Of a DNA stretch of 44,039 nt, positions 2,406 to 29,023 are shown piece after piece. The notes under the pieces were generated by a model that saw only the letters and a list, made by a program, of their open reading frames with translations, had not been told where the DNA came from and searched no databases. The DNA comes from a virus. Made by a program: the position numbers and the translations under genes. Position 1 is the first letter of the stretch. Each line of letters starts with the position of its first letter. The DNA lies in IMG/VR virus record IMGVR_UViG_3300017971_000421, positions 1-44,039 of that record; one strand, 5' to 3'.

Positions 2406-2407
2406 CC

Positions 2408-8135: not shown

Positions 8136-9107
8136 ATGGCAAGGAAATTAACATCAAGCAAAGCTAAGGAAATATTACGCCACGGTTCTGTACATAGTAA
8201 ACCTTTGACTGATAAGCAAAAACGATTTTTTGGTGCAGTTGCTGGTGGTGCTAAACCACAAATGAAAGGGGGTGGTAGTTTGCCTAAAAATATTGAGAAA
8301 GCTCGTAAAAGACCTGGCGGTAGTAATGTTGGTAAAAAACGTAAAACTTCAGGTGCTAAGGAAGGTCCATTTGTTGGTCCAGCTGGTGGTGCACCTAAAG
8401 GCTCATACCCTGTTACTAATAAAAAACAATGGCGTGCTGCTAAAGCTTATGCTCGTCATGCCCCTAACCCAGCGGGCATAAGGGCAGCTGCCGATCGTAT
8501 AGCTAAACGTAAAGGTTGGAAGAAACAGTATGGTGGCTATTTAATGAGTCCCGAAGAGTATGGCCTTGGTGGTTGGTTAAAAGATAATTTGCAGGGTGTA
8601 TGGGGTGGTCTTAAGACAGCTGGTGGTATTGCTGCTACAATAATATCAGGTGGTGCTGCTTTGCCTGCAACTTTACCCCTTATAACAAGTGGTATTGGTG
8701 ATATAACTGGGGAAGTTACTGGTGACATAGCAGCTAATAAACAAGAAGATTTATATGAACAGCAAATGGGGGCATTAAGAGCACAAAAATCTGCAGCTAG
8801 GCAGGAATCTTATCTTAATTCGTTAGAGGGGCAATCGAATAATCCATATACTCCAACATTTCCTATGGGTGGATCAATACCTTATGCTCAAGCTGAGATA
8901 GAAGGTGGTGAGGTCGTGCAATTTCCTAATGGTACGATGGATAGACCAAAAGGGCCTAGTCATAGGGAAGGCGGAATTAATGTTACTGCCCAAGAGAATA
9001 CTAGGGTATTTAGTGATGAATTAAAATATGATAAAAAAATGACGTATGCTGACAAGGCTGATGAAATAAAAAAACAAATAGAGAAGTATAAGAAATTATT
9101 ATCGTAA
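8136..9107 (+). CDS. Putative virion cargo/ejection protein 1
   Basis: 323 residues in three parts. Residues 1-130 are highly basic and Gly-rich, including KAKEILRHGSVHSKPLTDKQ and a YPVTNKKQWRAAKAYARHAP region that I have seen in Bacteroidota phage structural proteins. Residues ~145-210 contain a glycine-rich hydrophobic stretch (GGIAATIISGGAALPATLPL), likely membrane-interacting, followed by a helix. Residues ~254-323 contain AEIEGGEVVQFPNGTMDRPK then GPSHREGGINV, a recurrent C-terminal module of these phages, and end in a Lys-rich helix. Such proteins are probably packaged in the capsid and released with the DNA. The stop overlaps the next ATG (TAATG, one shared base). The cargo role is inferred from composition and location. 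Confidence 0.6.
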   Translation: MARKLTSSKAKEILRHGSVHSKPLTDKQKRFFGAVAGGAKPQMKGGGSLPKNIEKARKRPGGSNVGKKRKTSGAKEGPFVGPAGGAPKGSYPVTNKKQWRAAKAYARHAPNPAGIRAAADRIAKRKGWKKQYGGYLMSPEEYGLGGWLKDNLQGVWGGLKTAGGIAATIISGGAALPATLPLITSGIGDITGEVTGDIAANKQEDLYEQQMGALRAQKSAARQESYLNSLEGQSNNPYTPTFPMGGSIPYAQAEIEGGEVVQFPNGTMDRPKGPSHREGGINVTAQENTRVFSDELKYDKKMTYADKADEIKKQIEKYKKLLS

Positions 9108-10117
9108 TGGCTACAAGAATTCAAAAACAAACAGCGCAACGTATGATTGATAAGCTTAACAAGCAACTTGATGATTTGTTTGAAGAGCAAGAAATGTCAA
9201 AAGGTGGTCGCGTTGGTCGCAAATGCGCAAGGGGTTGTAATTTACGCAGGCCTAAAGCTCAATTTGGTGCGGCCCTTACTGGGGGGCTATCGCAAGCATT
9301 GTCAACTCATCCTACTTTGGGGGTAACACCTGGTACAGAGGGGGTTTTATCTAATTTGATTAGTGGACTTACTGGGGGTATTGGTAATTTAGGTAGTAAC
9401 ATACTTGGGACAGAAGATATCAGTGGTCAAGGTCATGGTCAAGGCCATTATAAATCCCGTATAGGCAGGTTTTTAGGCAGCCCATTAGCTGGTAAGATTG
9501 GTAAAGGCCTCGGAGAGATTGGGTACATGGGTGCAGCTTATGCTCCAGCTATGTATAATTTGATTCAAGGATTGCGTCCGGCTGATCAATTATCTTATGC
9601 TGATTACAGGAATCCGGAGTATAACCGTGCAGTCAGTTTAATGGCTGGTAGACGTTATGATCCTCGTGAGGAGCTTGCTGCTGCTGAAGAAGCAGATGCT
9701 GTTTATAGGCAAGCATTACGTAATATTGGTGCCCAATCAGCTGGTACATTAGCAAATAGGTTAGCTGGTGCATCAACAAGGAGATTGCGTAATAGGGCTT
9801 CTGCACTATCGAGGGCCCAAAGAGAAAATCTCGGTTTACGAGGTGAAGAAGCGAAATTTAGGGCTGGACTTGGTGCCGAAGATGTTGGTACTAGGTTTGC
9901 TATTGAAGATATCAATGCTAGGACTAGAGCAGCTCGTAGACGGTATATGTCTGAGGCAATGTCTAATTTATCGAATATTGCACAAACAAATAGACTGACA
10001 AATAGACTGATGCGCAACCAGCGTTTGCGTGATGAAAGGCTTTATGAGTTGGCAAAATCAATGGCATCTCCATATGCATTTGATGAGGATTATAGATTAC
10101 GATTTGAAGTTGATTAA
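9107..10117 (+). CDS. Putative virion cargo/ejection protein 2
   Basis: 336 residues. The N-terminal ~30 residues form a charged amphipathic helix. A C40-x3-C44 motif sits in a basic patch (GRKCARGCNLRRPK), echoing the 58-residue protein upstream. Residues 52-170 are Gly/Ala/Leu-rich and low in charge, as expected for a membrane-inserting ejection protein. Residues ~180-336 are a long Arg/Ala/Glu-rich helical region, probably coiled coil (REELAAAEEADAVYRQALRN, RRLRNRASALSRAQRENLGL). The start is coupled to the preceding gene by TAATG. The next gene begins 2 nt after its stop. I do not recognise a named family; context with the vRNAP genes suggests packaged cargo. Confidence 0.55.
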   Translation: MATRIQKQTAQRMIDKLNKQLDDLFEEQEMSKGGRVGRKCARGCNLRRPKAQFGAALTGGLSQALSTHPTLGVTPGTEGVLSNLISGLTGGIGNLGSNILGTEDISGQGHGQGHYKSRIGRFLGSPLAGKIGKGLGEIGYMGAAYAPAMYNLIQGLRPADQLSYADYRNPEYNRAVSLMAGRRYDPREELAAAEEADAVYRQALRNIGAQSAGTLANRLAGASTRRLRNRASALSRAQRENLGLRGEEAKFRAGLGAEDVGTRFAIEDINARTRAARRRYMSEAMSNLSNIAQTNRLTNRLMRNQRLRDERLYELAKSMASPYAFDEDYRLRFEVD

Positions 10118-11989: not shown

Positions 11990-14900
11990 ATGGCTCAATT
12001 TGATCCCCTTACGGGGTTAACAATAGAGGATGAGCCGCAACAGTCCTATGAAGAAAGATTAAATCAATCATTATTAGGTACGAATTATTTCGGAGTTCCG
12101 TCAACTGTAAGTGGCGGTGATTTTATCACTTCTAAGTACGATCAAGATTTATATCGATTTGAAGATCAGTACGCTCAAAGGGCTAGAGAACAATCGAAAT
12201 GGGCACAGCTTGGTAACATGCTTAATCAAGCTATTGTCGGTGAGATTATAGGCGGTACAATAGAAGGTGTAGGTTACCTTTTAGATTTTGAACAGTACGG
12301 CAATTTAATTGAAGGTACTGAACAAGAATTTGGCAACTGGTTTAGTGATTTAGGTCGAGGACTTAAAACGTGGACTCAGGAAGTAACCCCCATCTATACA
12401 GATTACAAGCCTGGGTCGTTTGCTCCAGGCAATTTTAGTTGGTGGATGTCTAATGCTCCATCGGTAGCATCAACATTAAGTTTGATGATACCTTCGGTTG
12501 GAGCAGTTAGTGGGTTAAGTGCTTTGGCTAAAGGTGCTGGTATAGCTGCTAAAATGGGTAAAGCTGCTAGATGGGCTGGTAGAGGTCTTACTCAAGCTTT
12601 CATGTCTCGTCACATGGAAAATATAATGGAAGCTGCCCAGACCTATGAAGAAACTGAAAAATTATCTATTGCTGCAGGTAAAAGCGCAGAGGAGGCTCGG
12701 CAGTTAGCTGCTATTGCTGCATCTGATTCCTATAATAGGAATTGGGTTATGATAGCTCAGGATATTCCTCAATATCTATTATTGGGTCGAGCATTTGGTA
12801 AAGCTAGTAGTCCAGCTACTGTTGAAGTAGGTAAACGTTTGGGTTACGATTTACTTCCTATTGTTGGCAAAAAAGCTGCTGCTATAGGTTGGGACATGCT
12901 TGGTGAATTTGGTGAAGAAGCATACCAATATGTAACAGCTGAAGAGTCAAAATATTTAGTACAGAGAATGTTAAATCCAGAGTTGGATTCATCGTTTGGG
13001 GATCGTATGCGTGAATACATACGTGACGGTGAATTGTGGACTGCTGGATTTTTTGGTGCTTTAGGTGCTGGTGCCATGCAAACTGCTGGTCGTGCAATTA
13101 ATGATGCTATAGCTGGCACCGGACATTCAGCTAGTGCTAGACGTGTTGCCGCTATAAACACTTTTGCCCCACTTGTCAAGTACTGGAATAATCAAGTTAG
13201 GGAAGCTGAAGATAGGGGAGATGTTGAAGCATCAGCTGATGCAAAATTAGGTTTAGTTTCGTCTTTGGCTGGTCAAGCAGTTATGATTGGTGGTCTTGGT
13301 GATGCTATTAATTTTGTTGAAACTATCACCAAAGAGGGTGGTCCTACTCAAGAAGATTTGGATAGGTTTGGTTTAACTGAGGAAGACGCCAAAACTATGC
13401 GTGATAATTTTCCAGATGTAGCTAGACATTTGCAAGAGATAGGGTCACTATATGATACAAATATTAAGAAATTTGATTCTGATATTGCAGCTGTTTTATC
13501 CAGTGGAGAATTTATAAGGAAACAACTTGATAACCGTCGATCTGACCTTGAAAGTCAAATTGAACAGCAAAAAGGTGAAATTGTAAATTATAATCGGGTA
13601 TCAAATATTAAACGTCAGTTACTGGAAAATGAGGCTAGAATTCGGTCACGGAAGAAATTTATAAAATCATCTGAAGAACGTTTAAAAAAAGACCCAAATC
13701 TAAAGGATAATGAAAAGGGCCAAGCGGATATTGAAAATCAAATACGTGTTGCTCAATTAGAGTTAGACGATTTTGATAAACTTAAAAAAGAGCTTGATGA
13801 ACATTATACCGCTGAAGAAAAAGCAAAAGATGCAAAATATCCTATTAAAGGTGCTGAATTAGATAAGTTAATTGATTTAGAAGGACGTTTAGGTAATACT
13901 GAATTTGCTATTCGTTCTTATGAGCGCCAGATGGATATGCTGGAACGGGGTCAAAAAGCCCGTCGAGCTAGAATAAAGGAGGAGCCTGAACCTCCTGTAG
14001 TTCCAAAACCTCCTACTACTGAAGAAGAAATACCTACGGCTGAAGTAGAAACGACTGAAGACAAAGCTCAGGAAACTAAAAAGCGGCAGAAAGATCGTAA
14101 AACCGAAATAAAGGAAACAACTGCTGCTGAAGATAAAGTACCTGATAAAAGGTTCGTTAACATAAACAGTAGAGATTTACAGGTTAGCGATTTAACCACA
14201 GCTGGTCCTACACAGTTTATAGGTTTTCTTAGGGGGGAACCTGGTATATTTTATAGTGAAGAAGGCCAACTTAAATTCAAGGATAATAAAACTAATACTG
14301 AAACTATTGTTGATGAGGAAACGTCGACTAAAACTCTACGTGCTCATGGGGCTGAATTAGCTAAATATTCCCTGTTTAACGTTGGTATAAATGCTAAAGG
14401 CGAAAATATTGTTATTACTATTGGTTCGCAAGATTTTACGATACCTATTGTTGAACCGTATAGTGCCATAAAAGAACGTAATAATTTAGCTGAATCAGTT
14501 ACATTGAAACGAGCAGATGGAAAGTCTGTTACGTTTACAGCAGTTCCATTAGTTGAAGAGTTATCTTCTACCTTAGTATTGTTTGATGTCGCTAAAAATG
14601 CAGTTATACGCAAATATTTTCAAATTGATGAGAATAAGGGGGCAAGGGCTAAGGACCCCAAAACTCAGAAAGAGTATCAAGTTTATAGGCGGGAAGATCG
14701 TTGGGTTGTAGTTGACATTGAAACAAATAAAACGTTACCTGCCGATGATGATATAACTAAACGAGTTATGTCAGCAGTTAATGCAGATTTACTTAGTTTG
14801 ATTGAATTTGGTCTGCAACATGTTGCTGATATATCCAATAAGGAGGAATTAAGAAATGAAATTAGAAAACTTGTTGATAACATTACCCCAGCAACTCCAG

Positions 14901-17900
14901 AGCAAACTAACAGGAGTACCGATGTCTCAAAGGTATCAGATTCTAAGGGAGTACCAGAGGAAACAACTGAACAGACAGCTGAATCCGTTGAACGCGGCAA
15001 GCAAGTTGAAGACAAAGCAATAGATGAGTTTGCTGAAGAGCGGTCTAAAGAGGAAGTAGCCGCTGAAATGGCTGAAGAGGAAACAGCTGAAGAACCACAA
15101 ACTATACAAGGTCGATCAACTGTTGTGGAGCCATTAGGGCCCTCAGAATCAATTCAAAGGGATGGGCAGTACTATGACACCACTGAAGACCAAAGACACG
15201 TCAGTGACTCTAAAAACATCGTTTTTGGGCTTCCTGATTCGTTTGTAGCTAGGTGGAGTCCAAAATTTCAAGAGGATCTCAATAAAGTATTGTCAAATCC
15301 TGAAACAGACATAGATAACTTTTCTGCTGAAGTTGAAATTGGGGTGTTTAATGAAACTAATAAGACATTTACAGTTGAAGCAGTTAAAGATAATTTATCT
15401 GATGAAGAGATTGCCAAATTGGATATGCGTATTACACTTCGTGATGCGGAAAATAAAGTTGTATCAAATGATATTTATGTTCCTATAGCTGGTGATCGTA
15501 TTGCTGATGACCAAGAACGGGCACATTTGCTTGAACATCGTAAACAAATTGTATCAAATGCTTTAAAAAATCAACCAAATATATTTAAGGTAAGACGAAC
15601 GGCTGGTGAACCACATAACACTGGTACTAATCAAAATATACTTAAATTTCTTACTAGTGTTGGCAAAGAGCTAACTGATGTTGATTTTGCATATGGTGAT
15701 AGTAACCGTATACCAAGAAGTTTACATGGTCTAGAAGATAACCTATCCCATAGGAGCCCATTACAACTTGGACCGGGTGATATAGCTATGTTGCATAATG
15801 CGACACCTAGTGGTGATTATGTTGCCAGCAAATTAAATCCTGCTAAACTTGGTCGCGAGTATGCTCAGGTGTTGTGGAAAGCTTTTCAAACTGCTGCAAA
15901 GAAAAAAAGTGTTAAAGCTAGATATGAAGGTAAGGAGGTTACTGGTGGCTTAACGTGTCATCAAGTTATTAATACTTTAACTTTTGTGGGTCCAGCAACC
16001 AAAAAGAGTGTTGAAAATGGGGCCACTTACTTAGCTAATAAAGTTGTTGCGTATGATTACAATAAAGGCAACCCATTTGTAGAATACAGTTTTGATACCA
16101 GAGATGGTTCAACCAAAAAAGTTTATATTAATAAAGCTACTGATTCTGAAATTAACGATTTTATTAATTATATTGCTAATAATAAGAATTTCTCGGTTGA
16201 TTTCAGTTCATTAGAAAATATAGTTGAAATACCATTTACTATATTAGGTAAAAAGTTTGAAAAAGGACAAACTGTATTACATGAATATTTAAAGAATGAT
16301 TGGCTACAAACAGATCTTGGGACATTTTCTGGTAATTCTGCTTATAAATCTCCATTGTTGATTGTTGACATAGGACAGCGAGTTGAAAAACCAATTGTTG
16401 AACCTGAAAGAGCTGAAAAAGAACCTGTATTTTATCAAGACGATATTGTTGGCAAAACTGTTGAATACAAGGGAAACGAATGGAAAGTTATTTCCGCTAA
16501 TCCCATATTTGAAGAGTATGATGCAGAAAAAGAATATTTAAGTGCTGCGGAAAGTGGAGAACAGGATATGGCTGGAGCTGAAGCGGCTTTTATGGATCCG
16601 GAAGAACTTGAACGTCTTGAAGAAGAAAGAGCTAAACGTGAGGAAGAAAAAAAGGCAGAAAAAGCTGATTTTCAAGTTGTATTAGAAAGGTATATAGAAG
16701 TTAAGGGCACTAAAAAACGAGAAGAAATTGCAATTGATAATTCTGCTGGGAATAAAGCTGCTTTTAATGCTGCAAAAATTATTGGTGAAGAGCCGGGAGA
16801 AGAACCAGGAGAGAGTTTTGAAGATATATTTGATGATGGTATACCGCTTAGACACAGATCAATTGTAAAAAATGTTCAAGAAAAAATTGATCTCACCGAA
16901 GAACTTGGTTGGTTACGCGAAAAATTAGGTAATGTCAGTGTTTTACAATTCAATGAAGTTGTTCGTATGGCCATTGAAAAGGGGAAGGACATATTTGGTG
17001 CTTTTTACAATGGTTCTATCGTACTTTTGTCGGACAGCGCTAAAGGTACTGTATATCATGAGGCTTTTCATAAAGTTTTTGGTGATTTTTTAACTGCGAA
17101 ACAACAGCAAAGGGTACTAAAAGAAGTACGAACCCGTTATTCTGATGAACTAGCAGCACAATATGGAGACAAAGAATTAACGGATAGAAGAGTTGAAGAT
17201 TTTCTTGCTGAGCGATTTAGTGAATTCGTAGCAAGTGATGGTGAAATCAAACCTGCAGGTCCACAAGCTAGGAATTGGTTCCAGAAATTACTCGATTTTA
17301 TAAAGGCTATAGTTCAGTTTAATAGATCCGAAATTGATAAGTTGTTCGATGCAATACAACGAGGTGATTTTAGGAATAGGGCTGAAACATTTACTAGTGA
17401 AGAGCAAAAAACAATTGTACAAAATCTGGCATATTTACTTTTGACTACCAATAATGTTGATAAATTTGATAATATAAAAGAATTAGATTATGGTTTGGTT
17501 CGTGAGCATCTTAAAAATCGATTAGAAAAATTTCATAAATATGCGGCTAAAGAGGAAAATGTAAAAGAAAATCCAGATAAGGTTATTAAAGCTACAAAAT
17601 TGATTGACGTTTATGAGCGTATACTTATGGAATTCGATCAATTTATAGGTATGACTGATGATTATTTGGGTACGTTTAATATAACTAGAAAAGATGGTGA
17701 TTTAGTTTATAAAAAACGTGAACAAGATTTTGTTGGAGATAACGAGGACGAGTCAATAGATAATGAATTTGAAAGATTTGAAAAAGCTCCATATGAAGTT
17801 TCGGCTAAAGACAATGCTTTAACTGAAATAAAATTATTGTTAGCAACACTCCCACATGGTGAAATAACTAAAACTGGTGCACATAAGGGATTACTTGATC

Positions 17901-20900
17901 CCCTTACGGGCATGCGTAAATTTGTTGATTTCAATACTATGTGGGCTGATATCATACGATTAGTACATGATGCACCCACCATTGAGGAGATGATTAGTCG
18001 ACTTGAAGAGAAAGCTGTAACTTCTCTGCCCTATCATGTCTTGCTAAATGGTTTAGAGAAAACAAACAGACTAGGTTTAAAAACTGGTCCCGATTCGTTG
18101 CGTATTAAGTTTTTTGTAACTATGCGCAAACATTACAATGATTTTATTGATTTTAGATATACAACAAATCAACGTGGTGACGTTGTTAATGCCGCTGCAA
18201 GAAGTTCATTTGTTAGGACTGAAGCTAGTAAGTACTTGAATATATGGTCACAGGAAATGTTGACCAACAGTCAGTTGTTTAATAAAACAACAACTGCACC
18301 TAATAAAGATTTTGCCTTTAGGTTGCTGGATAAGTACAAACAATTATTAAGAGATGTAAGAAAAGAATATCACGGTAAATTACCAAATAAGGACACATAT
18401 GAAGATTTAAAATGGCGTATAATTGGGTTATATAATAATATAGGTATACCGCTTGATTCTGAAACGTTAGATGGATATTTTGAAAATATGAGGGGATCCT
18501 CGCAGCAAAAATTACATGATTTTGTTGTTAAAAAGGGACATATGATTGGTATATTTGGTGTTGATAGTTTAATCTCCAAATTAGCCAAAGGTCAACAGGT
18601 TGCCAGAGGACAAGATATACTTCCCCCAGAAAAATATTTATCTAACGAAAGTAATGTACGCGGACTTGCAAGAGCATATGCCAATGCGCGACCTAGTGTA
18701 TCGGAGAGTGCTGTTTTAGGCCCCGGAGGTAATATACATTTTACTTATTCTATGCCTTCACCTATTACAGATTTTATTAGTAAGCTTAAAAGTAGCCCCA
18801 AATTTGTTGACCAATTATCCTCTGTTTTGTTTAATCAAAATTCACAGTATTTAAAACAAGTACGAGAAGGAGCTGAATTAGGTGTACACACATTTAGTGT
18901 ATTTACTGAAGAAAATGTTGGAGACACTGGTCGTGGATATCTTGAAATTACAGACTTGGAAGATTTTATATTTAAACTTTCATTTGTAATGGATGATGTT
19001 ATTCCACTTCCAACACTAGCTGACAGAAAAAGTTTTTATGCTTGGACTGGATTAAAGAAAATTAATTTTATAGGTAAAACTACAATTGAAAAAAATAAAT
19101 TACGCATACCACAAGAAATAATTGATATATTTGAGGGATATAAACGTGATGAGATAAATACCTCTAGAGAGGCTAGACGTGCAGTTGATGAGGCTATAGA
19201 AACAGAGGATTACAGTAAATTAGTTGAGGGATACCATTATAAGGTTGGAAAAAATGGTTTGCCCATCTATAAACAAAATGGACAATATACTGGTACTGCA
19301 ACAAATAAATTTAGACATTTTGACAGGGGTACATCTATTACTCAATTAATACAAAATGCCATAGATGACACTTTTGAATATGCTAAAGAATTAGGTGTCA
19401 TAAGTGAAACTAATGGTATTGTTTTAAATAGACATTTGCCCAAAAGACTGATTGATTCTGTCAAAGAAGAATTTAAAACTGATGATGACCAAATTGCCAT
19501 ACGTGCATTGATTGCCGAATTTACAGTTAATACAATGATGTCAACTATAGAAGCTGAAAAATTGCTTGTTGGTGACGCGGCTTTTTATAAAATTGATGAG
19601 AAAAAGGGAACTGTACACGATGATCGTGTTAAAAGGATTGGTGTAGTTGCAGCTGCTGGTGATAAAGTTGCCTCAAATATTTCAAATCCGCAAGATCCAT
19701 CTCTACGCAGAAATAAATATACAACTGTAACTTTTAATACGCAAAACTATGTAAGTAAATTTTATGATGAGCTAGTTGAAAAACATACTGCTAGATATAA
19801 AGAATTGGGTTTTGAAGATAGCGTAGCGTCAGCTATGGCTAAGACAAAACTTGCTGGTTATAAAGAAGTTGATCAAACTGATGCCCAAGTTTATATATCG
19901 CCCGAAATGTATAGGCAAATCAGTATGCGGTTAGGGGAATGGTCTGATGAAAAACAAGAAGCATTTGAACTTCTTGAAAGTGACAAAGAATTAACAACTG
20001 AAGAAGAGATTAGAACTTTAAATGTTGTTATGCAGCCATTAAAGCTAGTTTATTTCAATTTACATTTTGAAAATGGCTTAGCTATACCTGTTTATGATAA
20101 AATGTCATTAGCCACTGTGTTTAAAAAAGTGGCAAAAGGCACACAGTTAGAACCAATGTATAACCGTATGACCGACAAAAAACGGCCGTTAGATATGGTT
20201 AAATTTGATTCTGCTGTAAAAGCTGGCAATAGACAACAAATTAATTATTTTAAACGAACACAAGAAGGAGAAGATGTAGTAGATGAGTCGGCTTTACACA
20301 ATTCTATAGTATACGAGCAATTTTTTGATGGGCTGTATAGACAAGTTGTCACTGATCCACATGAAATTAAACGACAATTGCTTGGTACTCAAATGAAGAA
20401 AGTTTCTATCTCAAATATAGTACTTGGCGGAGAATATGTATTAGGTGGCAAAAAAGTTAAAGGTTCAGATGTTGTTGATGCTGCAAATAAGGCATTAAGA
20501 AACTTGTCCAATCGTGGAAAACGTAAATTGTTAGAGCGGCTAGGTGTTAATGAAGACGACCCACAAATACGTGATCCGGAGAATTTGGTTACGATGTTAC
20601 GTAGAGAAGCCAAATTGGCTGGAATGCCTGATAATATAGTAGATGCTTTATATGTAGATGAAAATGGCGAATTATATGTAGAATTTGATGCTCTACCAGA
20701 TCGCATGTGGATAGAAAATAGACTGATGTCAATAATTTCCAAGAATACGGTAGACGTGAAAACTGCTGGTGGTGGGTTTATACAAATGTCTAATTTCGGT
20801 TTAAAAAAGGTTAATGCTTTGAAAACCAGTGAACTGAAATTCTACAATGATGAGGGCAAAATGGAAATTATGGTTTCCGTTGGATTATTCAGAGATGTTA

Positions 20901-23900
20901 TACCCGGTTATAAAGAGGGTAAAGTTACATTTGAACAAGCTCGAAAATGGTTAAAAGAAAATCTTGACGGTATTGGTTATAGGATACCCACACAAGGATT
21001 AAATTCTGTTATACCTTTCACAGTAAAAGAATTTTTACCTGAAAATGTAGGAGACACTGTAGTACTTCCAGCTGAATTTACTAGACTTACTGGTTCTGAT
21101 TTTGATATTGACAAATTGTTTATAGCGCGATATAATTATAGAATTACTTTAAATAACGAAATCCAACGAATTAAATTTATTGATGTTGACACATCTTCTA
21201 AAGAAGGTTTAACTGAACTTTATCATGAGCGTTATGATAGAACAAAAAATCTACTTGAAAAAATGGATCGGGTTATCATAGAAGCCGAACGTGATTTTGA
21301 AGAAGATTTAGAACGAAAAGGAGGTGATCCTGAAGTTGTTAGTTTGATTACCGCTATGATGGGGGAAATGCCAGAATATTTTAGTGATGCTGAACTTGAT
21401 GAAATTCTACAAGAATATAATGGCAGATTTACTTTAAAACTTTATAATGAAATAAAAGAACGAGTTGAGAAAATTCCTACTTTAGAAGAATTTATCAAAG
21501 AAAATCATGGGAAGGATATATATGATTTAAATAACAGACTAGCAGTTGAGAACAGATTGTTAGATGCTTTTACAGCTGTTACTACTAGTCCATTACATCT
21601 AATTGATAATACAACACCACTTGGTGTTCACACGGGGACACTTAAAGATATATCTGAAGTTGTTAAAAAAGCTGAAGGTAAAGATATTAAGTTGCGTGCT
21701 TTAATGGGTACAACGCCTAGATTCCAGTCAGAAACAAAATCTAGATTTACCGATAGTATGGGTGGTATTGGTCCATTTGCATTAAATAATGTACACCATT
21801 CTCTTGGTCAAATTGTTAAATTAGGTTTGAAAAGTGCAAATGTATTACCGGGTTTAATTCACTATGATGAAGAAAATTCTGTTATAGATTTGTCACAAGT
21901 GCGTGATGTTGATAAAAGAGTTGCAATACTTAGTTGGTTATCCGCATTTATTGATGCTCATGTGGATGCAGCTAAGGATCCTTATATTACTGATCTTAAT
22001 ATTGGTCCGGCTACTTATAATGTCGCCAACTTGTTATTAAGAGCTGGTGCTGGTGCGGAATTTGTTGGGTATTTATTATCACAACCGATTATAAAAGAAT
22101 ACGCTAAATTACGAAGTAGGTATGACGGGAATATTGGTGGAAATCCGAATGCTAATATAAATAAAATAGTTAGGAAAAAATATTGGGCAAATACCAGTAA
22201 ATCTGCAGTGGAGAATGTAGACGTTAAGTCGTTGTTAACGCCTTCTGGTCTCATGAAATTGTTGAGTGCACCTAAAAATAGTGATTGGTATGCTAAACAA
22301 ATTGCATTGTCACGATTTTTTACGGAATTAAATAGTTTATCGTTCTCATTGAATGAAGCAGTTCAGGCAAGTCAAATTGATACCAAGCGTTATGGTTCTA
22401 ACATTGTACAAGTTAGAGCGTTTATGAATCGATTTAATAGGGTCATAGAATCTGATCTTGTATATAATTTTGACAAACTTATTAATGAATCGTTTTTAGG
22501 TACATTATTAGAGAATAGTGTAGATTTGGCTCAGGATATGCTTCGCAATCTCACTATATCATCTACAGATAAGTTTGATGATATGATGAATTCGTTGCTG
22601 TTACAAACTGGTAAGAAATATAGTAGTGACGATAAGTTAATCAATAGATATGCAAATATACTGCATGCAACTATTATAAGTGAATATTTCACTAGTCCAA
22701 AAGGCATGGGATTGACAGCTGATATTGTTAAACGTATGTTTTTTGGCAAGAAAAGTTTAGCTAGATGGATACACGCAATTCAACGCGGTAAAACGTTTCC
22801 ACATTTACAAAATAATCTGTTTATACAATCACTTACGCCTGTTTTATCCGATAAAAAAGAGATTCCTGATACTTTGCAAATGTTAAGTTTTGGTAAATTG
22901 GATAGATGGAGCAAAAATAGTCTTTCAAATGCTTGGTTAGATTTGTTTAATGATAATTCTAAAGATAGCGAGAAGATTCGTAGGTTAGCTATGAACCTTA
23001 TGGCATATAGTTTTATTATATCTGGACGTAGATTTGGACTTAATGCTTTTCACCAATTTTTACCTATCGATGCTGCTAAACAAATTCCACAACATATCGA
23101 CGAAGCTATTTCATTTAGTGATGGTGTCAAGCAAATTAAAGAGGAATTACAGGAAGGCGAACGTGATATTGATATATTACGTGAATTGTATCTTAATAAT
23201 TGGCCCGATGATTCTCTAGTTCCATCTGTATCTCCAGTTGCAACAAAAATTGCTGTAGAACCAAAAACAAATAAATCCTTAAATTACCCCTATTTATTTA
23301 CTGTTGCTGGTAATTCGTCTTGGTATGGTACTAACCATAAAGGACAACCTTTGTATCAACCATTTGTTAAAATACGTAATAATAAATATGGGTGGTTAAT
23401 AGGTGAATATATTGGTTATCGTGTTGATAACGAAGATAATGTCTTACCAGTTTATAAAGTTGTTAATAAGAAGGGATATTTTACTAGAAATATAAAAGTT
23501 TATGAATATAATCTAGATACATCATTTGAAACAGAGAACAATTTACCACGATTGTTGTCAGAAGCAAAAGAACCGGAAGTTATTAAACTTAAGGGATATG
23601 AAAATTTTCAACATGTTCCTAAAGAGGATCGGATAGCAAATTACTATAATCCTGTACAAGTATCAGAAAAACGTCTTGAACAACCTGTCAGTATTTCTGT
23701 AAAGAAAAAGATGACCATGACTTTTGCTGGTCAATTTGATAATGTAATATCCGGTAAAAAAACCCAAACTACCAGGCAAAATAGAAATAATTACAAAGTG
23801 GGAGACGTGGTGACTATTGTAAGTGATGATAATCGATCTGTCAGAGCTAGAGTAACATACGTTGAACCAGTAAATATTGAACAAATACATGCTTTACCGG

Positions 23901-26900
23901 CAACTGATTCCTATTTTACTCTTGAAGGTAGGGACAAAGAATATTTTGTAAAAAACACTCAGTATCTTAAAGGAAAATCTAATGTTGTTAAAATAGGGTT
24001 TGAATTGCTTGATGAAAGTGTTGTATCACAAGAACCGGAACAGGGTAAATTATTTGAAATTCCGGTGGATACTTCGAAATTTGTAAATGTGTATGCTGGT
24101 GCAGGAGAAAATTTTGAATTATCTAATTTAGCTTGGAGACCGTTTAATTTAAGGGGGGGACAAACAATTGCTATGACCCATCTTGATGAATTACTAGACA
24201 AAATAAAAAAAATGTTTCCACATTTACAAAATAATCTGTTTATACAATCAATTGACGATGTACCTGAAGTATTAAACGAAATATTTAACATTCAATTTCC
24301 CGGTGAGAAAGCTAGAGGACACGATATATATGATATAAGGTTTACGTCGGTTGAACAATTTTTTCAGGCTATGAAATTTCAGTGGTCCACTATGTCAGAT
24401 CCTAAAAATAAGGAACTGTTAAGACAAATTATGACTACTAAGAAAACTGGTGAAATTAAGAAATTAGGTAGACAATTTACTTTAGAAGAGCAGGCTGATT
24501 GGAATGAGGTTGCTTTTGATCTCATGAAATTTGCTGTGTATGAATCATTTAATCAAAATATAGAAGCGAAAGATAAATTATTAGCTACGGGTAGTAAAAA
24601 AATAACACATGTACAGGATAAAACTAGATGGAAAGAGGATTTTCCCGAAATTTTAGAGGAGGTACGATTTAGGTTAGCCAGAGATTTGGGTCCATACAGT
24701 AAATTACCAATACCAATAGATTATGAACAACGTATAGGTGCTCCACAAAAGGAAACTAGCCGATTAAAAGAAATACTAGCATTACTTAATAAACAAGATC
24801 TTTCGCCAGAAGAGCGTCAAGGACTTGAAGAAGAATTGCATGATCTTTACTATAAAGATCCGACTGAACGTGTAACTATCGCTGAAAAAAGAGCAGCTAG
24901 AGAAACTAAAGAAAAACCTAGTAGAGGTGTAACCAAAGAATCCATTATTAAGTATCTTAGAGATACTGAAGCTATGAACACAAAAGAATTTAAGGGTTTC
25001 GATAATTGGATTAAAATTGGTCGGGATAGATCCGCATTACCAGCTAGTCGCAGGGTTATATTTAAACTTAATAAAAAATATGAAAAATATGGTAAATTAA
25101 TTACATTGATACCACGCAATGATTCATGGCTAATACAAATTAATCAAGATGTTATTGACAAGCTCAATGCACGTGAACAACGTGTCACAAAGGGTGAGCC
25201 TTTAACTAGAGCTGAATTTGAAGAGCAACGACAAATATTGCAAAAAACTTTTCCAGGTGTCAGAATTGTTGAGGATTTTACATTAGATATCCCCGGAAAA
25301 TTAATGTCAGGTGGAGAAGAAATTCATGTAAATCCAGTTTATTGGTTACGTGATACATTAGGTCACGAATTTGGTCATTTGCTTATTGACCTTATTGGTG
25401 GTGTTAACAATAGATTGGTAAGACAGGGATTGCGTTTCCTGGATGGGACTGATTTACAAAAAGATGTTTATAATAAGTATTCAGATCTTATAGAACGTGG
25501 AGAATTTGATAGAGTTCAAAAAGAAGTTCTTGCCCAAGCTGTTGGTTTAGAAGCAGCTAAAATTTTTAAAGAAGAATTTGAAATGGGTCGTTGGGAACGG
25601 TGGCTTGTACGGTTCTTCAGACGTATAAGACAATTGTTGGGTATTGAGTCTTCAGCTGTACGTAAATTAGCTAAAACTCTTGTTCGTGGTACACCAGTAA
25701 AAGCTGAGGATTTACATGGACAACCCTCTACTTATGAGCAAGAGCAACGTATTGATCCAAAGGAAGCGGAAGATGTCCTTAAGTTGGAAGAGGAGCCAGA
25801 AACTGATCTCAATAAAATACGTAAGAAAGCTATCGAAGCCTTAGAGAAAAAAATTGGTATTTACCAACAGAGAGGTAAGAAGGCTGCAGTTGAAGCCATT
25901 GAAAAAGGTCTCAATGAAGTACAAGAAGGGGATAATCCATATCGATCTATACGAAGGTTTATTGAAGTTGCTAGACGGCAAACGAATAGTGTTATACAAG
26001 ACATACATAGATTTGAATCAGAAGCTGGTCTAGGCATTGAAGAAGATCCGTTTAATGCTGATCGTTTGTCTAAGTGGAAAGATTATGTTGCTGCCTATGC
26101 CAATGTATTATATGATATTAGAAATGCATTAATTGAACTTAAAAATGCACCAATTGAAGTTGGGGATAAATTTAGGAAAGGCAGAGATATTCGCATGCAA
26201 GCTAGAATTGAAGAAATTGATGAGATTTTAGCAAATAAAACATTTATTGAGAGACTGTATGTGCGAAAAGGTGTTAACATAGTTTCTAAATTTTTAGCAC
26301 CATATTCTACTAGAATTGCTGGGGAATACAAAGAAGCGCTTGAAAGGCGGTGGAATAGACTTAGTAAAAAAGAGAAAGAAGAAACACCATTAGAAGAATA
26401 CCAAGCTAAATATCTTGCTGCAAATGATGAACAAATAAAACTTAAAACTGAAGAATCGATACGCAAAGAGTTGTTAAAAGCTGAATGGGATATTAATTTT
26501 TTGGGCCGGTGGTTAGACAACTTGCTTGATTCACCTGATCTTGTTGTTCAAGCAATGGTTAAAAAATTTAGTTTAACTGATGAACAATCTAGATATGAAT
26601 CAATAGGTGCACGTAACCGTATAGTTGCAGCTAAGAAAAAGCTTGAAAAATTTCTGGGTAGTATGGCGGATCAAACTAAGTTCTATGGTTTTATGCTAGA
26701 ACGCGATAAAAAAACTGGTTTGTTGACGCAACATTATGTAACACCTTATCTTAGTTCAATGTGGGACGAATATAACGATAAAGTTACTGAATGGACCAAT
26801 GACCCGGATATTAGTGATCTAGCTTTACGTGCTAAAAAAGAGAGCTGGATTAATGAAAATTATGGTCGTTCAAAAAAAGATAAAATTGCTTATAACAAAG

Positions 26901-29023
26901 CTCGTGCTGAATATTTACGGAAAATGAAAGAAGAAGGGCAGTTAACTGATGCTGAGTGGGCTGTAATTGATTCCTGGGAAGCCAATCGGAATTCTCGTTA
27001 TAGTTTTGTATTGCGTGAACATGTACGAGAAGAAACTGCCGAAAAATATTTTGAATTCTTAGATACTTCTAGATGGGAATACAGAACACCGGCAGAACGA
27101 TGGAGAAATCCACAATGGAAAAAATTGTTAGAAATAGCTGATATTGATCCACAATTAACAGAAACTGAACAACGTGAATTATTAAAACTTAATGAAAATA
27201 AAGATCCAAGAATTGAATTTTATAACTTAATTGTTGAATTATCTGAAGAAGCAGATAAGATGTTGCCATATAGATTTAGGCTCCGTGGAAAATTACCAGC
27301 TATTGCGGCGAAATTGGGTGAACGTGTGCTCCGCAAACAAAAACCCAGCACTATTGCTAGGGAAGAGACTAGGCTAGGATTAGTAAAAAGACCTGAAGAT
27401 ATTGAAAAGGGTCAACTTGATATTACTAATGAAGCTGGAGATCCTATAAACTTTGTACCTATTTTTTATACTTATGATATCGAACCACAAAATCAATCAT
27501 ATGATATAGCTACAATCTATCAGAGATATTGGTCTATGGCTCGGGATTACTCACTAAAGAGTGAAATTTTACCGGAAATGGAAATGGCTAAGTATTTCGT
27601 AGAAAATAGAGAAGTACTACGTCGAGATGAAAGAGGCAATATTATAAAAGATGGTCTTAGTAGAATTGGGGATCGAATGTTAACTAAAAAAGGAGTGCAA
27701 TCATTTGTATCACAACAATTAGGAGATTGGTTCAAGTCAATTATCTATGGTCAAAGAGTAAGAGATGAAGGAGTTTTACCATTGTTTGGTGCAAATGTTG
27801 ATATTGCTAAAGGCGCTGACCTACTTAACCGGTATACATCATTCAACTTGCTAGGTCTTAATATGGTACAGGGAGTAGCTAACGTATTGCTCGGTGAAAC
27901 AATGCAGTGGGCTGAAGCTTTTGGTGGCGAATACTATGGTGTAAAAGATTTTGTTAAAGCAGGAGTATATTATACAAAAAATCTCCCGGGTATATTAGGA
28001 GATATTGGCGAAAGAGTGCCAACTAATATTATTTCTCTAATAAACGAAGAATTCAATACATTAAATGAATATGAAAATGGCGAATATAGAAAAAATTCTA
28101 AGTTCCAACAATTGATGTCATCTAATACCCTCTTTTTTACTACTCACGCTGGTGAACATTTAATGCAAACTAGAGTTGTACTAGCTATGCTTAATCGCAT
28201 GCGAGCTAAAGATAAGAATGGTAAAGATATGGGTACTATGTTAGACAATTTAACTATTGGTAAAGACGGCAGACTCGATGTTAAAGAAGGTGTGGCTAAT
28301 TTTGGACGAGAAAAAAGAGCAAAATTTGGACTGCAAGCACGTAGAATCTTATCAGCAATGCATGGGGAATATTCGAGGAATGGTATGGCAGCTGTCCAAA
28401 GATATGCCTTGGGACGACTTGGTATAATGTTTAGGAAATTTGTTGTACCAGGGTTTAAACGCAGATATGCCAAGAAAAAGTATAATGAATTGCTTGAAGG
28501 TTGGACTGAAGGTAATTATAGAACTACGGGTAGATTTTTCAGGAATCTTATGAAAGATTTGCGCATATTTAGATTGGCCGCTTGGTCAGAAGAATGGACA
28601 GACCTTACTCGCATGGAAAAAGGTAACATAAGAAAAACCATGGCAGAAGTGGTATTCCTTGCAACTGTTATAATAATGTCAACTATATTTATTGGGAAAA
28701 TGGAAGGAGAGGACGATGATGAGGAATGGTTGTGGTCATTTATGGCTTATCAAGCTCTTAGATTACGTACCGAGTTGTTATTCTTTTCACCTAAATTAAA
28801 TGAAGCTCTTAGGATATTACGGTCACCAGCTGCTAGCATGTCCGTTGTAGAGAACATAATTAATTTAACTAGTCAAATGTTTGATCCATTTGAAAGGTAC
28901 GAAAGGGGAAATTGGAAAGGTAAACCTAAAATTACAAAAACTATGATAAATTTTGTACCTGGTGTTAGACAAGTGTATAGAATGAAATATGTAAATGACC
29001 AAATAAGCTGGTTCCGCAATTAA
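11990..29023 (+). CDS. Giant crAss-like virion RNA polymerase polyprotein with protease, ASCH and NADAR modules (5,677 aa)
   Basis: This single frame takes up 39% of the window. The N-terminal ~400 residues contain hydrophobic Gly/Ala helices, then coiled coil (~500-660) and Pro/Glu-rich acidic linkers (~660-715 and ~965-1050). An HEAFH zinc-protease motif lies at 1690-1694. The polymerase signature is DFDID at 3037-3041, preceded by GYRIPTQ (2996-3002), like the RxPT...DFDGD region of cellular RNAP and the motif of phage phi14:2 gp66. An ASCH-like domain (~3905-4005) contains ISGKKTQTTRQ and YKVGDVV. A NADAR-like domain (~4030-4235) contains FELSNLAWRPF, FTSVEQFFQAMKF and DKLLATGSKKITH. A second zincin motif, HEFGH, is at 4459-4463. 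The C-terminus is helical, with one likely membrane span (~5550-5572). In known relatives the enzyme is packaged and transcribes early genes after entry. Whether it is cleaved is unknown. Confidence 0.88.
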   Translation: MAQFDPLTGLTIEDEPQQSYEERLNQSLLGTNYFGVPSTVSGGDFITSKYDQDLYRFEDQYAQRAREQSKWAQLGNMLNQAIVGEIIGGTIEGVGYLLDFEQYGNLIEGTEQEFGNWFSDLGRGLKTWTQEVTPIYTDYKPGSFAPGNFSWWMSNAPSVASTLSLMIPSVGAVSGLSALAKGAGIAAKMGKAARWAGRGLTQAFMSRHMENIMEAAQTYEETEKLSIAAGKSAEEARQLAAIAASDSYNRNWVMIAQDIPQYLLLGRAFGKASSPATVEVGKRLGYDLLPIVGKKAAAIGWDMLGEFGEEAYQYVTAEESKYLVQRMLNPELDSSFGDRMREYIRDGELWTAGFFGALGAGAMQTAGRAINDAIAGTGHSASARRVAAINTFAPLVKYWNNQVREAEDRGDVEASADAKLGLVSSLAGQAVMIGGLGDAINFVETITKEGGPTQEDLDRFGLTEEDAKTMRDNFPDVARHLQEIGSLYDTNIKKFDSDIAAVLSSGEFIRKQLDNRRSDLESQIEQQKGEIVNYNRVSNIKRQLLENEARIRSRKKFIKSSEERLKKDPNLKDNEKGQADIENQIRVAQLELDDFDKLKKELDEHYTAEEKAKDAKYPIKGAELDKLIDLEGRLGNTEFAIRSYERQMDMLERGQKARRARIKEEPEPPVVPKPPTTEEEIPTAEVETTEDKAQETKKRQKDRKTEIKETTAAEDKVPDKRFVNINSRDLQVSDLTTAGPTQFIGFLRGEPGIFYSEEGQLKFKDNKTNTETIVDEETSTKTLRAHGAELAKYSLFNVGINAKGENIVITIGSQDFTIPIVEPYSAIKERNNLAESVTLKRADGKSVTFTAVPLVEELSSTLVLFDVAKNAVIRKYFQIDENKGARAKDPKTQKEYQVYRREDRWVVVDIETNKTLPADDDITKRVMSAVNADLLSLIEFGLQHVADISNKEELRNEIRKLVDNITPATPEQTNRSTDVSKVSDSKGVPEETTEQTAESVERGKQVEDKAIDEFAEERSKEEVAAEMAEEETAEEPQTIQGRSTVVEPLGPSESIQRDGQYYDTTEDQRHVSDSKNIVFGLPDSFVARWSPKFQEDLNKVLSNPETDIDNFSAEVEIGVFNETNKTFTVEAVKDNLSDEEIAKLDMRITLRDAENKVVSNDIYVPIAGDRIADDQERAHLLEHRKQIVSNALKNQPNIFKVRRTAGEPHNTGTNQNILKFLTSVGKELTDVDFAYGDSNRIPRSLHGLEDNLSHRSPLQLGPGDIAMLHNATPSGDYVASKLNPAKLGREYAQVLWKAFQTAAKKKSVKARYEGKEVTGGLTCHQVINTLTFVGPATKKSVENGATYLANKVVAYDYNKGNPFVEYSFDTRDGSTKKVYINKATDSEINDFINYIANNKNFSVDFSSLENIVEIPFTILGKKFEKGQTVLHEYLKNDWLQTDLGTFSGNSAYKSPLLIVDIGQRVEKPIVEPERAEKEPVFYQDDIVGKTVEYKGNEWKVISANPIFEEYDAEKEYLSAAESGEQDMAGAEAAFMDPEELERLEEERAKREEEKKAEKADFQVVLERYIEVKGTKKREEIAIDNSAGNKAAFNAAKIIGEEPGEEPGESFEDIFDDGIPLRHRSIVKNVQEKIDLTEELGWLREKLGNVSVLQFNEVVRMAIEKGKDIFGAFYNGSIVLLSDSAKGTVYHEAFHKVFGDFLTAKQQQRVLKEVRTRYSDELAAQYGDKELTDRRVEDFLAERFSEFVASDGEIKPAGPQARNWFQKLLDFIKAIVQFNRSEIDKLFDAIQRGDFRNRAETFTSEEQKTIVQNLAYLLLTTNNVDKFDNIKELDYGLVREHLKNRLEKFHKYAAKEENVKENPDKVIKATKLIDVYERILMEFDQFIGMTDDYLGTFNITRKDGDLVYKKREQDFVGDNEDESIDNEFERFEKAPYEVSAKDNALTEIKLLLATLPHGEITKTGAHKGLLDPLTGMRKFVDFNTMWADIIRLVHDAPTIEEMISRLEEKAVTSLPYHVLLNGLEKTNRLGLKTGPDSLRIKFFVTMRKHYNDFIDFRYTTNQRGDVVNAAARSSFVRTEASKYLNIWSQEMLTNSQLFNKTTTAPNKDFAFRLLDKYKQLLRDVRKEYHGKLPNKDTYEDLKWRIIGLYNNIGIPLDSETLDGYFENMRGSSQQKLHDFVVKKGHMIGIFGVDSLISKLAKGQQVARGQDILPPEKYLSNESNVRGLARAYANARPSVSESAVLGPGGNIHFTYSMPSPITDFISKLKSSPKFVDQLSSVLFNQNSQYLKQVREGAELGVHTFSVFTEENVGDTGRGYLEITDLEDFIFKLSFVMDDVIPLPTLADRKSFYAWTGLKKINFIGKTTIEKNKLRIPQEIIDIFEGYKRDEINTSREARRAVDEAIETEDYSKLVEGYHYKVGKNGLPIYKQNGQYTGTATNKFRHFDRGTSITQLIQNAIDDTFEYAKELGVISETNGIVLNRHLPKRLIDSVKEEFKTDDDQIAIRALIAEFTVNTMMSTIEAEKLLVGDAAFYKIDEKKGTVHDDRVKRIGVVAAAGDKVASNISNPQDPSLRRNKYTTVTFNTQNYVSKFYDELVEKHTARYKELGFEDSVASAMAKTKLAGYKEVDQTDAQVYISPEMYRQISMRLGEWSDEKQEAFELLESDKELTTEEEIRTLNVVMQPLKLVYFNLHFENGLAIPVYDKMSLATVFKKVAKGTQLEPMYNRMTDKKRPLDMVKFDSAVKAGNRQQINYFKRTQEGEDVVDESALHNSIVYEQFFDGLYRQVVTDPHEIKRQLLGTQMKKVSISNIVLGGEYVLGGKKVKGSDVVDAANKALRNLSNRGKRKLLERLGVNEDDPQIRDPENLVTMLRREAKLAGMPDNIVDALYVDENGELYVEFDALPDRMWIENRLMSIISKNTVDVKTAGGGFIQMSNFGLKKVNALKTSELKFYNDEGKMEIMVSVGLFRDVIPGYKEGKVTFEQARKWLKENLDGIGYRIPTQGLNSVIPFTVKEFLPENVGDTVVLPAEFTRLTGSDFDIDKLFIARYNYRITLNNEIQRIKFIDVDTSSKEGLTELYHERYDRTKNLLEKMDRVIIEAERDFEEDLERKGGDPEVVSLITAMMGEMPEYFSDAELDEILQEYNGRFTLKLYNEIKERVEKIPTLEEFIKENHGKDIYDLNNRLAVENRLLDAFTAVTTSPLHLIDNTTPLGVHTGTLKDISEVVKKAEGKDIKLRALMGTTPRFQSETKSRFTDSMGGIGPFALNNVHHSLGQIVKLGLKSANVLPGLIHYDEENSVIDLSQVRDVDKRVAILSWLSAFIDAHVDAAKDPYITDLNIGPATYNVANLLLRAGAGAEFVGYLLSQPIIKEYAKLRSRYDGNIGGNPNANINKIVRKKYWANTSKSAVENVDVKSLLTPSGLMKLLSAPKNSDWYAKQIALSRFFTELNSLSFSLNEAVQASQIDTKRYGSNIVQVRAFMNRFNRVIESDLVYNFDKLINESFLGTLLENSVDLAQDMLRNLTISSTDKFDDMMNSLLLQTGKKYSSDDKLINRYANILHATIISEYFTSPKGMGLTADIVKRMFFGKKSLARWIHAIQRGKTFPHLQNNLFIQSLTPVLSDKKEIPDTLQMLSFGKLDRWSKNSLSNAWLDLFNDNSKDSEKIRRLAMNLMAYSFIISGRRFGLNAFHQFLPIDAAKQIPQHIDEAISFSDGVKQIKEELQEGERDIDILRELYLNNWPDDSLVPSVSPVATKIAVEPKTNKSLNYPYLFTVAGNSSWYGTNHKGQPLYQPFVKIRNNKYGWLIGEYIGYRVDNEDNVLPVYKVVNKKGYFTRNIKVYEYNLDTSFETENNLPRLLSEAKEPEVIKLKGYENFQHVPKEDRIANYYNPVQVSEKRLEQPVSISVKKKMTMTFAGQFDNVISGKKTQTTRQNRNNYKVGDVVTIVSDDNRSVRARVTYVEPVNIEQIHALPATDSYFTLEGRDKEYFVKNTQYLKGKSNVVKIGFELLDESVVSQEPEQGKLFEIPVDTSKFVNVYAGAGENFELSNLAWRPFNLRGGQTIAMTHLDELLDKIKKMFPHLQNNLFIQSIDDVPEVLNEIFNIQFPGEKARGHDIYDIRFTSVEQFFQAMKFQWSTMSDPKNKELLRQIMTTKKTGEIKKLGRQFTLEEQADWNEVAFDLMKFAVYESFNQNIEAKDKLLATGSKKITHVQDKTRWKEDFPEILEEVRFRLARDLGPYSKLPIPIDYEQRIGAPQKETSRLKEILALLNKQDLSPEERQGLEEELHDLYYKDPTERVTIAEKRAARETKEKPSRGVTKESIIKYLRDTEAMNTKEFKGFDNWIKIGRDRSALPASRRVIFKLNKKYEKYGKLITLIPRNDSWLIQINQDVIDKLNAREQRVTKGEPLTRAEFEEQRQILQKTFPGVRIVEDFTLDIPGKLMSGGEEIHVNPVYWLRDTLGHEFGHLLIDLIGGVNNRLVRQGLRFLDGTDLQKDVYNKYSDLIERGEFDRVQKEVLAQAVGLEAAKIFKEEFEMGRWERWLVRFFRRIRQLLGIESSAVRKLAKTLVRGTPVKAEDLHGQPSTYEQEQRIDPKEAEDVLKLEEEPETDLNKIRKKAIEALEKKIGIYQQRGKKAAVEAIEKGLNEVQEGDNPYRSIRRFIEVARRQTNSVIQDIHRFESEAGLGIEEDPFNADRLSKWKDYVAAYANVLYDIRNALIELKNAPIEVGDKFRKGRDIRMQARIEEIDEILANKTFIERLYVRKGVNIVSKFLAPYSTRIAGEYKEALERRWNRLSKKEKEETPLEEYQAKYLAANDEQIKLKTEESIRKELLKAEWDINFLGRWLDNLLDSPDLVVQAMVKKFSLTDEQSRYESIGARNRIVAAKKKLEKFLGSMADQTKFYGFMLERDKKTGLLTQHYVTPYLSSMWDEYNDKVTEWTNDPDISDLALRAKKESWINENYGRSKKDKIAYNKARAEYLRKMKEEGQLTDAEWAVIDSWEANRNSRYSFVLREHVREETAEKYFEFLDTSRWEYRTPAERWRNPQWKKLLEIADIDPQLTETEQRELLKLNENKDPRIEFYNLIVELSEEADKMLPYRFRLRGKLPAIAAKLGERVLRKQKPSTIAREETRLGLVKRPEDIEKGQLDITNEAGDPINFVPIFYTYDIEPQNQSYDIATIYQRYWSMARDYSLKSEILPEMEMAKYFVENREVLRRDERGNIIKDGLSRIGDRMLTKKGVQSFVSQQLGDWFKSIIYGQRVRDEGVLPLFGANVDIAKGADLLNRYTSFNLLGLNMVQGVANVLLGETMQWAEAFGGEYYGVKDFVKAGVYYTKNLPGILGDIGERVPTNIISLINEEFNTLNEYENGEYRKNSKFQQLMSSNTLFFTTHAGEHLMQTRVVLAMLNRMRAKDKNGKDMGTMLDNLTIGKDGRLDVKEGVANFGREKRAKFGLQARRILSAMHGEYSRNGMAAVQRYALGRLGIMFRKFVVPGFKRRYAKKKYNELLEGWTEGNYRTTGRFFRNLMKDLRIFRLAAWSEEWTDLTRMEKGNIRKTMAEVVFLATVIIMSTIFIGKMEGEDDDEEWLWSFMAYQALRLRTELLFFSPKLNEALRILRSPAASMSVVENIINLTSQMFDPFERYERGNWKGKPKITKTMINFVPGVRQVYRMKYVNDQISWFRN
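22795..22831 (+). repeat. 37-nt direct repeat, copy 1 (RNAP C-terminal region)
   Basis: Identical base for base to 24214-24250, in the same frame, encoding FPHLQNNLFIQS. The copies start 1,419 nt (473 codons) apart. This copy lies in a context that looks native to the RNAP (RGKTFPHLQNNLFIQSLTPV). Confidence 0.95.
24214..24250 (+). repeat. 37-nt direct repeat, copy 2 (inside the NADAR-like domain)
   Basis: Second exact copy of 22795-22831. It sits in a ~60-residue insertion between the LSNLAWRPFNL and FTSVEQFF elements of the NADAR-like fold, so it is likely the derived copy. Confidence 0.95.

Follow-up and report, generated by a model that had tools for sequence, protein, structure and literature searches.

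A 5,677-codon frame as the probable, fully fused RNA-polymerase cargo of a crassvirus, and a cysteine rule at gene splits in its relatives

A single reading frame of 5,677 codons, carried on a 44,039-base partial virus record that was analysed over its whole length (the window), appears from homology to be the virion RNA-polymerase (RNAP) cargo of a crassvirus, with three modules, here called A, B and C, fused. In relatives, these modules are spread over two or three genes, and nearly every split has a cysteine close to the end of the piece on either side. We think it likely that the frame represents this cargo in its fully fused form, and that A, B and C always make up one functional chain, joined where the genes are split by disulphides, bonds that we infer. 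Giant, fused crass RNAP genes were known already; new is the all-in-one layout with an inserted NADAR domain. Among viruses of the human gut, crassviruses are the most abundant; at stake is how polymerase cargo of megadalton scale is packed, ordered and passed through the tail.

One frame, three modules

The frame runs on the plus strand from an ATG at 11990 to a TAA ending at 29023 and has no internal stop in the standard code (table 11), as the initial annotation had claimed for these 17 kb. Given the base composition, a frame this long would stay open by chance only at a log10 probability near -208, and the other five frames contain 172 to 892 stops over the same interval. The same frame also lies on a second IMG/VR contig, 3300017963_000497 (loci L004, L005 and L040, with the frame in L005), at 100% identity over 23,172 bp; this is a separate assembly record, perhaps of the same population as the window, and not a fully independent confirmation. 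It is highly improbable that an assembly or frame artefact has merged two or three genes here. The contig is metagenomic, and its closest relatives, L018 and L020, stop short of the B/C joint (in L018, the nearest at about 70% core identity, the contig end falls inside B). Against an artefact, however, stand the exact agreement of the two records, a GC content by codon position that is steady along the whole frame and over both module joints, and a divergent contig, L034, with the same three-module fusion. Genuine split ends would, in addition, show the cysteine pairs described below, and the window frame has none.

The computed mass of the product, 648.7 kDa, agrees with the roughly 0.65 MDa given for it earlier. 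It can fairly be ranked with the larger proteins of phages, yet relatives have frames of 6,078 aa (L039) and 6,506 aa (G012 C148), both measured stop to stop, and a 2023 review gives ~6,000 aa as the upper size of RNAP genes (PMC10136315), so that sheer size is ruled out as a novelty.

A gene for the crassvirus muzzle protein at 3340-7953 (Pfam crAss_MUZ, E 1.1e-199) puts the frame near crassvirus structural genes and thus identifies the phage as a crassvirus. Together with the DFDID core and the module homology, this neighbour bears out the earlier reading of the frame as crassvirus virion RNA-polymerase cargo with fused regions. A tblastn search with the middle third of the frame found 120 phage records, nearly all crass-like; Pfam and PHROG searches recognised little beyond NADAR. 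The frame and its parts are as follows.

11990..29023, plus strand: whole A-B-C fusion, 5,677 aa, 648.7 kDa, one Cys (aa 1323); identical frame in L005
11990..17359, plus strand: module A, aa ~1-1790, the N-terminal cargo, with homology to p-crAssphage gp45 and split A genes; zincin 1 at its end; approximate border with B
13967..14173, plus strand: acidic linker, aa 660-728, inside module A; 25% D+E, 12% P
14882..15154, plus strand: acidic linker, aa 965-1055, inside module A; 26% D+E, 7% P
15956..15958, plus strand: sole Cys codon, aa 1323, away from any joint
16907..17539, plus strand: putative zincin 1 region, aa 1640-1850; HEAFH at aa 1690-1694 (17057-17071); HExxH in 70/78 AB fusions
17357..23539, plus strand: module B, aa ~1790-3850, predicted virion RNA polymerase; borders approximate; 22.9% identity to phi14:2 gp66 over 1,895 columns
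19475..21181, plus strand: RNAP core, aa 2496-3064, from the core alignment; catalytic DFDID at aa 3037-3041 (21098-21112)
23711..24031, plus strand: ASCH-like domain, aa ~3908-4014, a marginal call; Pfam E 0.005 (under the cut-off); E 2.6e-4 to PHROG 986 (RNA-binding)
24095..24676, plus strand: NADAR domain, aa ~4036-4229; Pfam E 6e-13; E4122, K4129 and H4207 (phage-type His)
24827..29020, plus strand: module C, aa ~4280-5677; N-terminal border approximate; 29% identity to the cr4_1 C gene over 1,123 aa; homologue of phi14:2 gp65 and crAss001 gp49
25130..25789, plus strand: putative zincin 2, aa 4381-4600; HEFGH at aa 4459-4463 (25364-25378); homologues with E down to 2.5e-48; HExxH in phi14:2 gp65
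27167..29020, plus strand: C-terminal domain of C, conserved, aa 5060-5677; with a single hydrophobic helix, aa 5549-5573 (28634-28708)

Module A matches p-crAssphage A over aa 38-385 (BLASTP E 7e-26), and aa 1-390 are common to 27 loci. The two linkers that had been proposed as spacers or cleavage regions between blocks are real and acidic, but both lie within A and none is found at the A/B or B/C joint; they are ruled out as module borders, and cleavage between blocks at these sites is unsupported. For module B, a profile of the RNAP core family finds PDB 6VR4 (E 1.1e-166), so that a crass-type core with DxDxD is present. This structure is that of phi14:2 gp66, a protein of 2,180 aa (about 2,200 had been quoted), to which B aligns over the whole core, the window DFDID at aa 3037 corresponding to that at 1361 in gp66.

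The two protease regions of the initial annotation are recovered as two putative zincin metallopeptidase sites whose HExxH is conserved in homologues, and neither of which has a Pfam family match. Its NADAR region likewise stands. The ASCH region is less secure: it has the PHROG match listed above, but no Pfam match above the cut-off (18.0 bits vs 21.2), and its structure model is of low confidence. The model of the C-terminal domain of C has a pLDDT of 76 and a TM score of 0.81 against the predicted fold of phi14:2 gp65; a PDB fold search with this domain gave nothing below E 0.2, and there is a weak match to polyvalent-protein-associated domain 3 proteins. Separately, we observed a repeat of 49 bp, nearly exact (94%; 36 bases identical), at 22790-22837 and 24209-24257, encoding the peptide FPHLQNNLFIQS, one copy being in module B and the other within the NADAR domain, in an extra loop, which suggests a recent internal copy.

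Comparison across crass-like genomes confirmed that other phages split these regions over several genes, and showed that the order A-B-C is kept. Roughly 200 loci, drawn from genomes in IMG/VR and GTDB, were reduced to 166 non-redundant genomes at 90% core identity. Only two of these, the window and L034, have A, B and C in one frame; this is a rough frequency, as many loci are fragments or are cut by the 10-kb flank. The L034 frame is 5,549 aa long, with 38% core identity to the window, and NADAR was not found in it. What is notable about the fusion is therefore its completeness, which is rare, but not fusion as such, since AB and BC fusions are common in relatives. Among annotated genomes, phi14:2, Dulem virus 41 and crAss001 (with A elsewhere) have three separate genes; the Suoliviridae have an AB gene of 4,272-4,946 aa followed by a C gene of 1,381-2,007 aa; and p-crAssphage (BC of 4,070 aa in its family) and Rudgehvirus have A apart from a fused BC. 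On the RNAP core tree, the window and L034 are not sisters and each lies amid genomes of the AB-plus-C layout, so that the B/C fusion probably arose independently in each. A third candidate, L061, in which TAG readthrough might have produced a three-module fusion, was ruled out: its A+B frame ends in a Cys at the stop and C is a separate frame.

Cysteines at the ends of split modules

Cysteine is scarce in all three modules, making up 0.07% of A, 0.16% of B and 0.15% of C as compared with 0.56% in the other long ORFs of the loci. At that latter rate, 32 would be expected in the window frame, which has one in 5,677 residues (P about 4e-13). Where the modules are split, the few cysteines sit at the split. 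Across the 166 non-redundant genomes, an A/B split has a terminal Cys at the C-terminus of A in 60/62 cases and at the N-terminus of B in 62/62, and a B/C split has one at the C-terminus of B in 120/124 and at the N-terminus of C in 118/124. In contrast, outer ends rarely have one: it was seen at the N-terminus of 2/59 AB and 2/43 split A proteins, and at the C-terminus of 4/101 C and 0/27 BC proteins. Fused joints are without Cys. The placement is tight, with 120 Cys in the final 10 residues of B genes against a single one in positions 11-60, and exactly one Cys is present in 72/99 complete C genes and 35/41 A genes. In some genomes, including crAss001, the C-terminal Cys of B lies 7-9 residues from the end.

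The outer-end exceptions that we inspected trace to unusual split points or to interrupted genes. L163 and L184, which count as outer ends, start at another split point, with zincin 1 fused to B, and the piece upstream in L163 ends in its only Cys; in L075, C is cut in two, with a Cys on either side. Judging by their lengths, L133, L050, L167 and L196 seem to be interrupted genes, and a few splits (L091, L064, L068) lack one Cys partner. The state of the joints has changed repeatedly, at least 7 times for A/B and at least 5 times for B/C, or at least 12 fusion or split changes in all, these being minimum counts on one quick core tree with many weak branches. Throughout, Cys state and joint state disagree in only 4/119 (A/B) and 2/146 (B/C) cases.

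A second feature marks the split points. The first ~60-70 residues of split B and of split C form N-terminal caps that are homologous to each other (best E 1e-13) and for which no Pfam family was found. A cap profile matches 23/62 split B and 41/118 split C proteins and 0/57 outer N-termini, with a best value of 0.006 in the shuffled control. The cap also occurs at the unusual split points and is absent inside fused genes; a relic of a cap or Cys was looked for at the joints of the window frame and not found.

The rule does not extend to the rest of the cargo block. The gene directly upstream of A has a terminal Cys in 0/87 and 0/62 cases. We also noticed that the window ORFs at 8136-9107 and 9107-10117 match different parts of one ~670-744-aa Suoliviridae gene, an upstream cargo-block gene that is split here. 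This split in another ejection gene has no Cys pair, which indicates that the cysteine rule is specific to the A-B-C chain. As a further observation, the cyanobacterial Leptolyngbya phage Lbo-JY46 (L014) has a module C homologue whose only Cys is in its starting MSNC, and the only Cys of the preceding gene is its last residue; the rule may thus reach beyond phages of Bacteroidota. In the literature searched, we found no mention of the rule, and the word 'cysteine' is absent from the main text of PMC10172136 and PMC7886860; the primary papers, Yutin 2018 and Drobysheva 2021, were beyond this search and may contain a prior mention. The rule is new as far as this search goes, and we do not claim priority.

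A proposed single chain, and other readings of the cysteines

Cysteines on both sides of the splits and not elsewhere suggest that the pieces always enter the bacterium as one linked chain, split A, B and C being re-joined by disulphides. We lean, with somewhat less conviction than for our reading of the frame, toward a general form of this proposal: all crassviruses would deliver their RNAP cargo as a single head-to-tail chain, with terminal Cys and cap re-joining split pieces in the virion and the reducing host cytoplasm releasing them. Boundaries would be free to move, and the 5,677-residue frame would be the version with no split. Weighing against the proposal are the few splits with only one Cys partner, the B cysteines set back from the end and the lack of any cap or Cys relic at the fused joints. 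The A-B-C links would be peptide bonds in the window and end-to-end disulphides in split relatives. Nearly free of Cys, the chain would be kept in the capsid and then threaded through the tail A first, partly unfolded, where having few other cysteines might avoid wrong bonds in a protein that must unfold. The reducing cytoplasm would open the disulphide links, the delivered polymerase would transcribe early genes, and the NADAR domain at the B/C joint, most likely arriving with the chain, would remove ADP-ribose placed on DNA or small molecules by host defences.

Several of these steps have counterparts in print, and it is from this literature on homologues that we take RNAP activity, virion location and ejection. 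Homologous cargo is present in the virion and the polymerase acts early after ejection (PMC10172136, PMC10136315). In the crAss001 virion, disulphides link subunits among the proteins of the tail and portal vertex, other than the cargo, and the tail has constrictions of <50 Å that require partial unfolding of the cargo (PMC10172136). A beads-on-a-string ejection model exists for the ~3,500-residue N4 RNAP (PMC12633501), and the 5,002-residue gp96 of P23-45 is full-size in virions (PMC10770324). How such a chain passes through the tail, posed in the initial annotation as an open question, is thus partly addressed already.

Two other explanations of the terminal cysteines concern what they do. 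They might be an RNA-level signal at gene junctions, for translational coupling or start/stop context, and it is true that intergenic gaps are mostly a few bases long and overlaps are common. Yet the codons are mixed, TGT as well as TGC, and vary in their distance to the stop or start, the rule holds over gaps of >300 bases (L046, L079, L082), and in crAss001 the A gene (gp47, ending in RCNS) is on the opposite strand from, and not adjacent to, the B gene (gp50, starting with MSKRC). The mixed codons and the crAss001 gene order argue that the signal acts on proteins, and we give an RNA-level cause almost no credence. Alternatively, the cysteines might bind metal or anchor the pieces to another virion component, with the split proteins travelling separately. 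The A-B and B-C bonds are, after all, predicted rather than observed, and the caps, as small domains, might dock at some other place. Against this stands the pattern, with Cys at internal cut ends only, on both sides, even at unusual splits (L075, L163), and not at outer ends; nor is any further conserved Cys/His pattern evident near the terminal Cys in the ends listed. We regard metal binding or anchoring as unlikely.

Equally doubtful, in our estimate, is a polyprotein, in which the chain's own zincins would cut it into A, B and C before packaging or after delivery and fusion would only equalise amounts. The positions are suggestive, zincin 1 being just ahead of the A/B joint and zincin 2 just past the B/C joint; the zincin 1 HExxH, so frequent in AB fusions, is found in just 1/39 genomes with all three genes separate, and the zincins of polyvalent proteins are predicted autoproteases, with DdrB of phage P1 being processed (PMC5512222). 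On the other hand, HExxH is kept in 17/23 already separate A genes of genomes with a fused BC, and in crAss001 gp47, while L018 has HEGFE in its place although its A and B are fused; these two observations weaken the idea of zincins as required joint cutters. Zincin 2, moreover, is rare in BC fusions (3/25), and the N4 RNAP, although it has a zincin, enters the virion unprocessed (PMC5512222), as P23-45 gp96 is full size in virions (PMC10770324).

Delivery as one linked chain predicts a link at every gene split, which makes it biochemically testable in two cultured phages, and partly in published mass spectrometry data on reduced and non-reduced crAss001. If true, it would bear on the variable boundaries of RNAP proteins among related crassviruses, a variability pointed out for the Zeta group (PMC7886860), and would represent, as far as we know, a new way of joining ejection proteins.

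Known relatives and the NADAR domain

Among characterised phages, phi14:2 offers the clearest parallel, its gp67, gp66 and gp65 lying side by side in A-B-C order and being recorded as virion proteins on the basis of mass spectrometry. It differs in having three genes with 1, 2 and 1 Cys, all at joint ends, in a gp67 that is without the zincin 1 HExxH, and in that no NADAR was found. The nearest annotated relatives are the Suoliviridae cr1_1, cr4_1 and cr118_1, with 28-29% identity over B and the same module order; unlike the window, where C is in the same frame, they have an AB of 4,491-4,946 aa, a separate C gene of 1,667-2,007 aa and a Cys pair at the B/C ends. In p-crAssphage, gp45 carries the annotation of an RNAP-associated protein with a fused zincin protease and gp44 that of the RNAP catalytic subunit joined to another subunit, so that A is separate and B and C are fused, with Cys at the end of A and the start of B. 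The crAss001 proteins gp47, gp50 and gp49, found in virions (PMC10172136), sum to nearly the mass of the window protein (262.5 + 276.9 + 154.5 kDa), yet are three proteins with Cys at the joint ends and A encoded on the other strand.

More distant systems share the giant chain. The virion RNAP of N4-like phages (Schitoviridae), compared by description only, is an ejected single chain with a zincin, but has a T7-type fold and ~3,500 residues (PMC5512222, PMC12633501). P23-45 gp96 (5,002 aa) combines a two-barrel RNAP and a metallopeptidase (PMC10770324), but is joined to the tail tape measure of a phage with a long tail. Polyvalent proteins, which occur in phages and in conjugative elements, are injected multidomain chains with zincins and host-conflict domains; the window frame has such domains and is putatively injected, though its chain is built around a crass RNAP, and crAss phages go unmentioned in the text of the 2017 survey of polyvalent proteins (PMC5512222).

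The NADAR domain, which like the ASCH-like domain sits at the B/C joint, is not confined to the window: it is present in the RNAP gene of at least 8 other crass genomes (L039, L117, L062, L069, L094, L072, L208, L008), mostly near the end of B and, in cr126_1 (L008), near the start. An alignment of L069 shows, by eye, an ASCH-like segment ahead of NADAR. The structure model of the window domain finds 8bau (E 1.3e-4) and 2b3w (E 5.7e-4) by Foldseek. E4122, K4129 and H4207 are invariant in an alignment of 8 crass NADARs and, by comparison with PMC11543638 and PMC11125620, would correspond to the NADAR Glu, Lys and phage-type last-strand His. The domain most likely counters an ADP-ribosylation-based defence; a role as phage counter-defence packaged in the virion has been proposed for NADARs (PMC9503650), and their recurrence in polymerase genes suggests that counter-defence enzymes enter along with the polymerase. 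Counting against this role, an assayed phage NADAR could hydrolyse guanine-ADP-ribose in vitro, yet cells facing DarT1 were not rescued by it (PMC11125620).

Two further observations concern the reach of these genes. A structural protein of Tenacibaculum phage Gundel_1 (Pachyviridae; L017, 10050-17498) contains the second zincin with its HEFGH, a possible exchange between unrelated phages. Crass-like RNAP genes also occur in assemblies labelled Neisseriaceae, Campylobacteraceae, Pseudomonadales and Sphaerochaeta (L109/G012 contig 148, L116, L117, L098), which are probably binned phage contigs rather than evidence of hosts.
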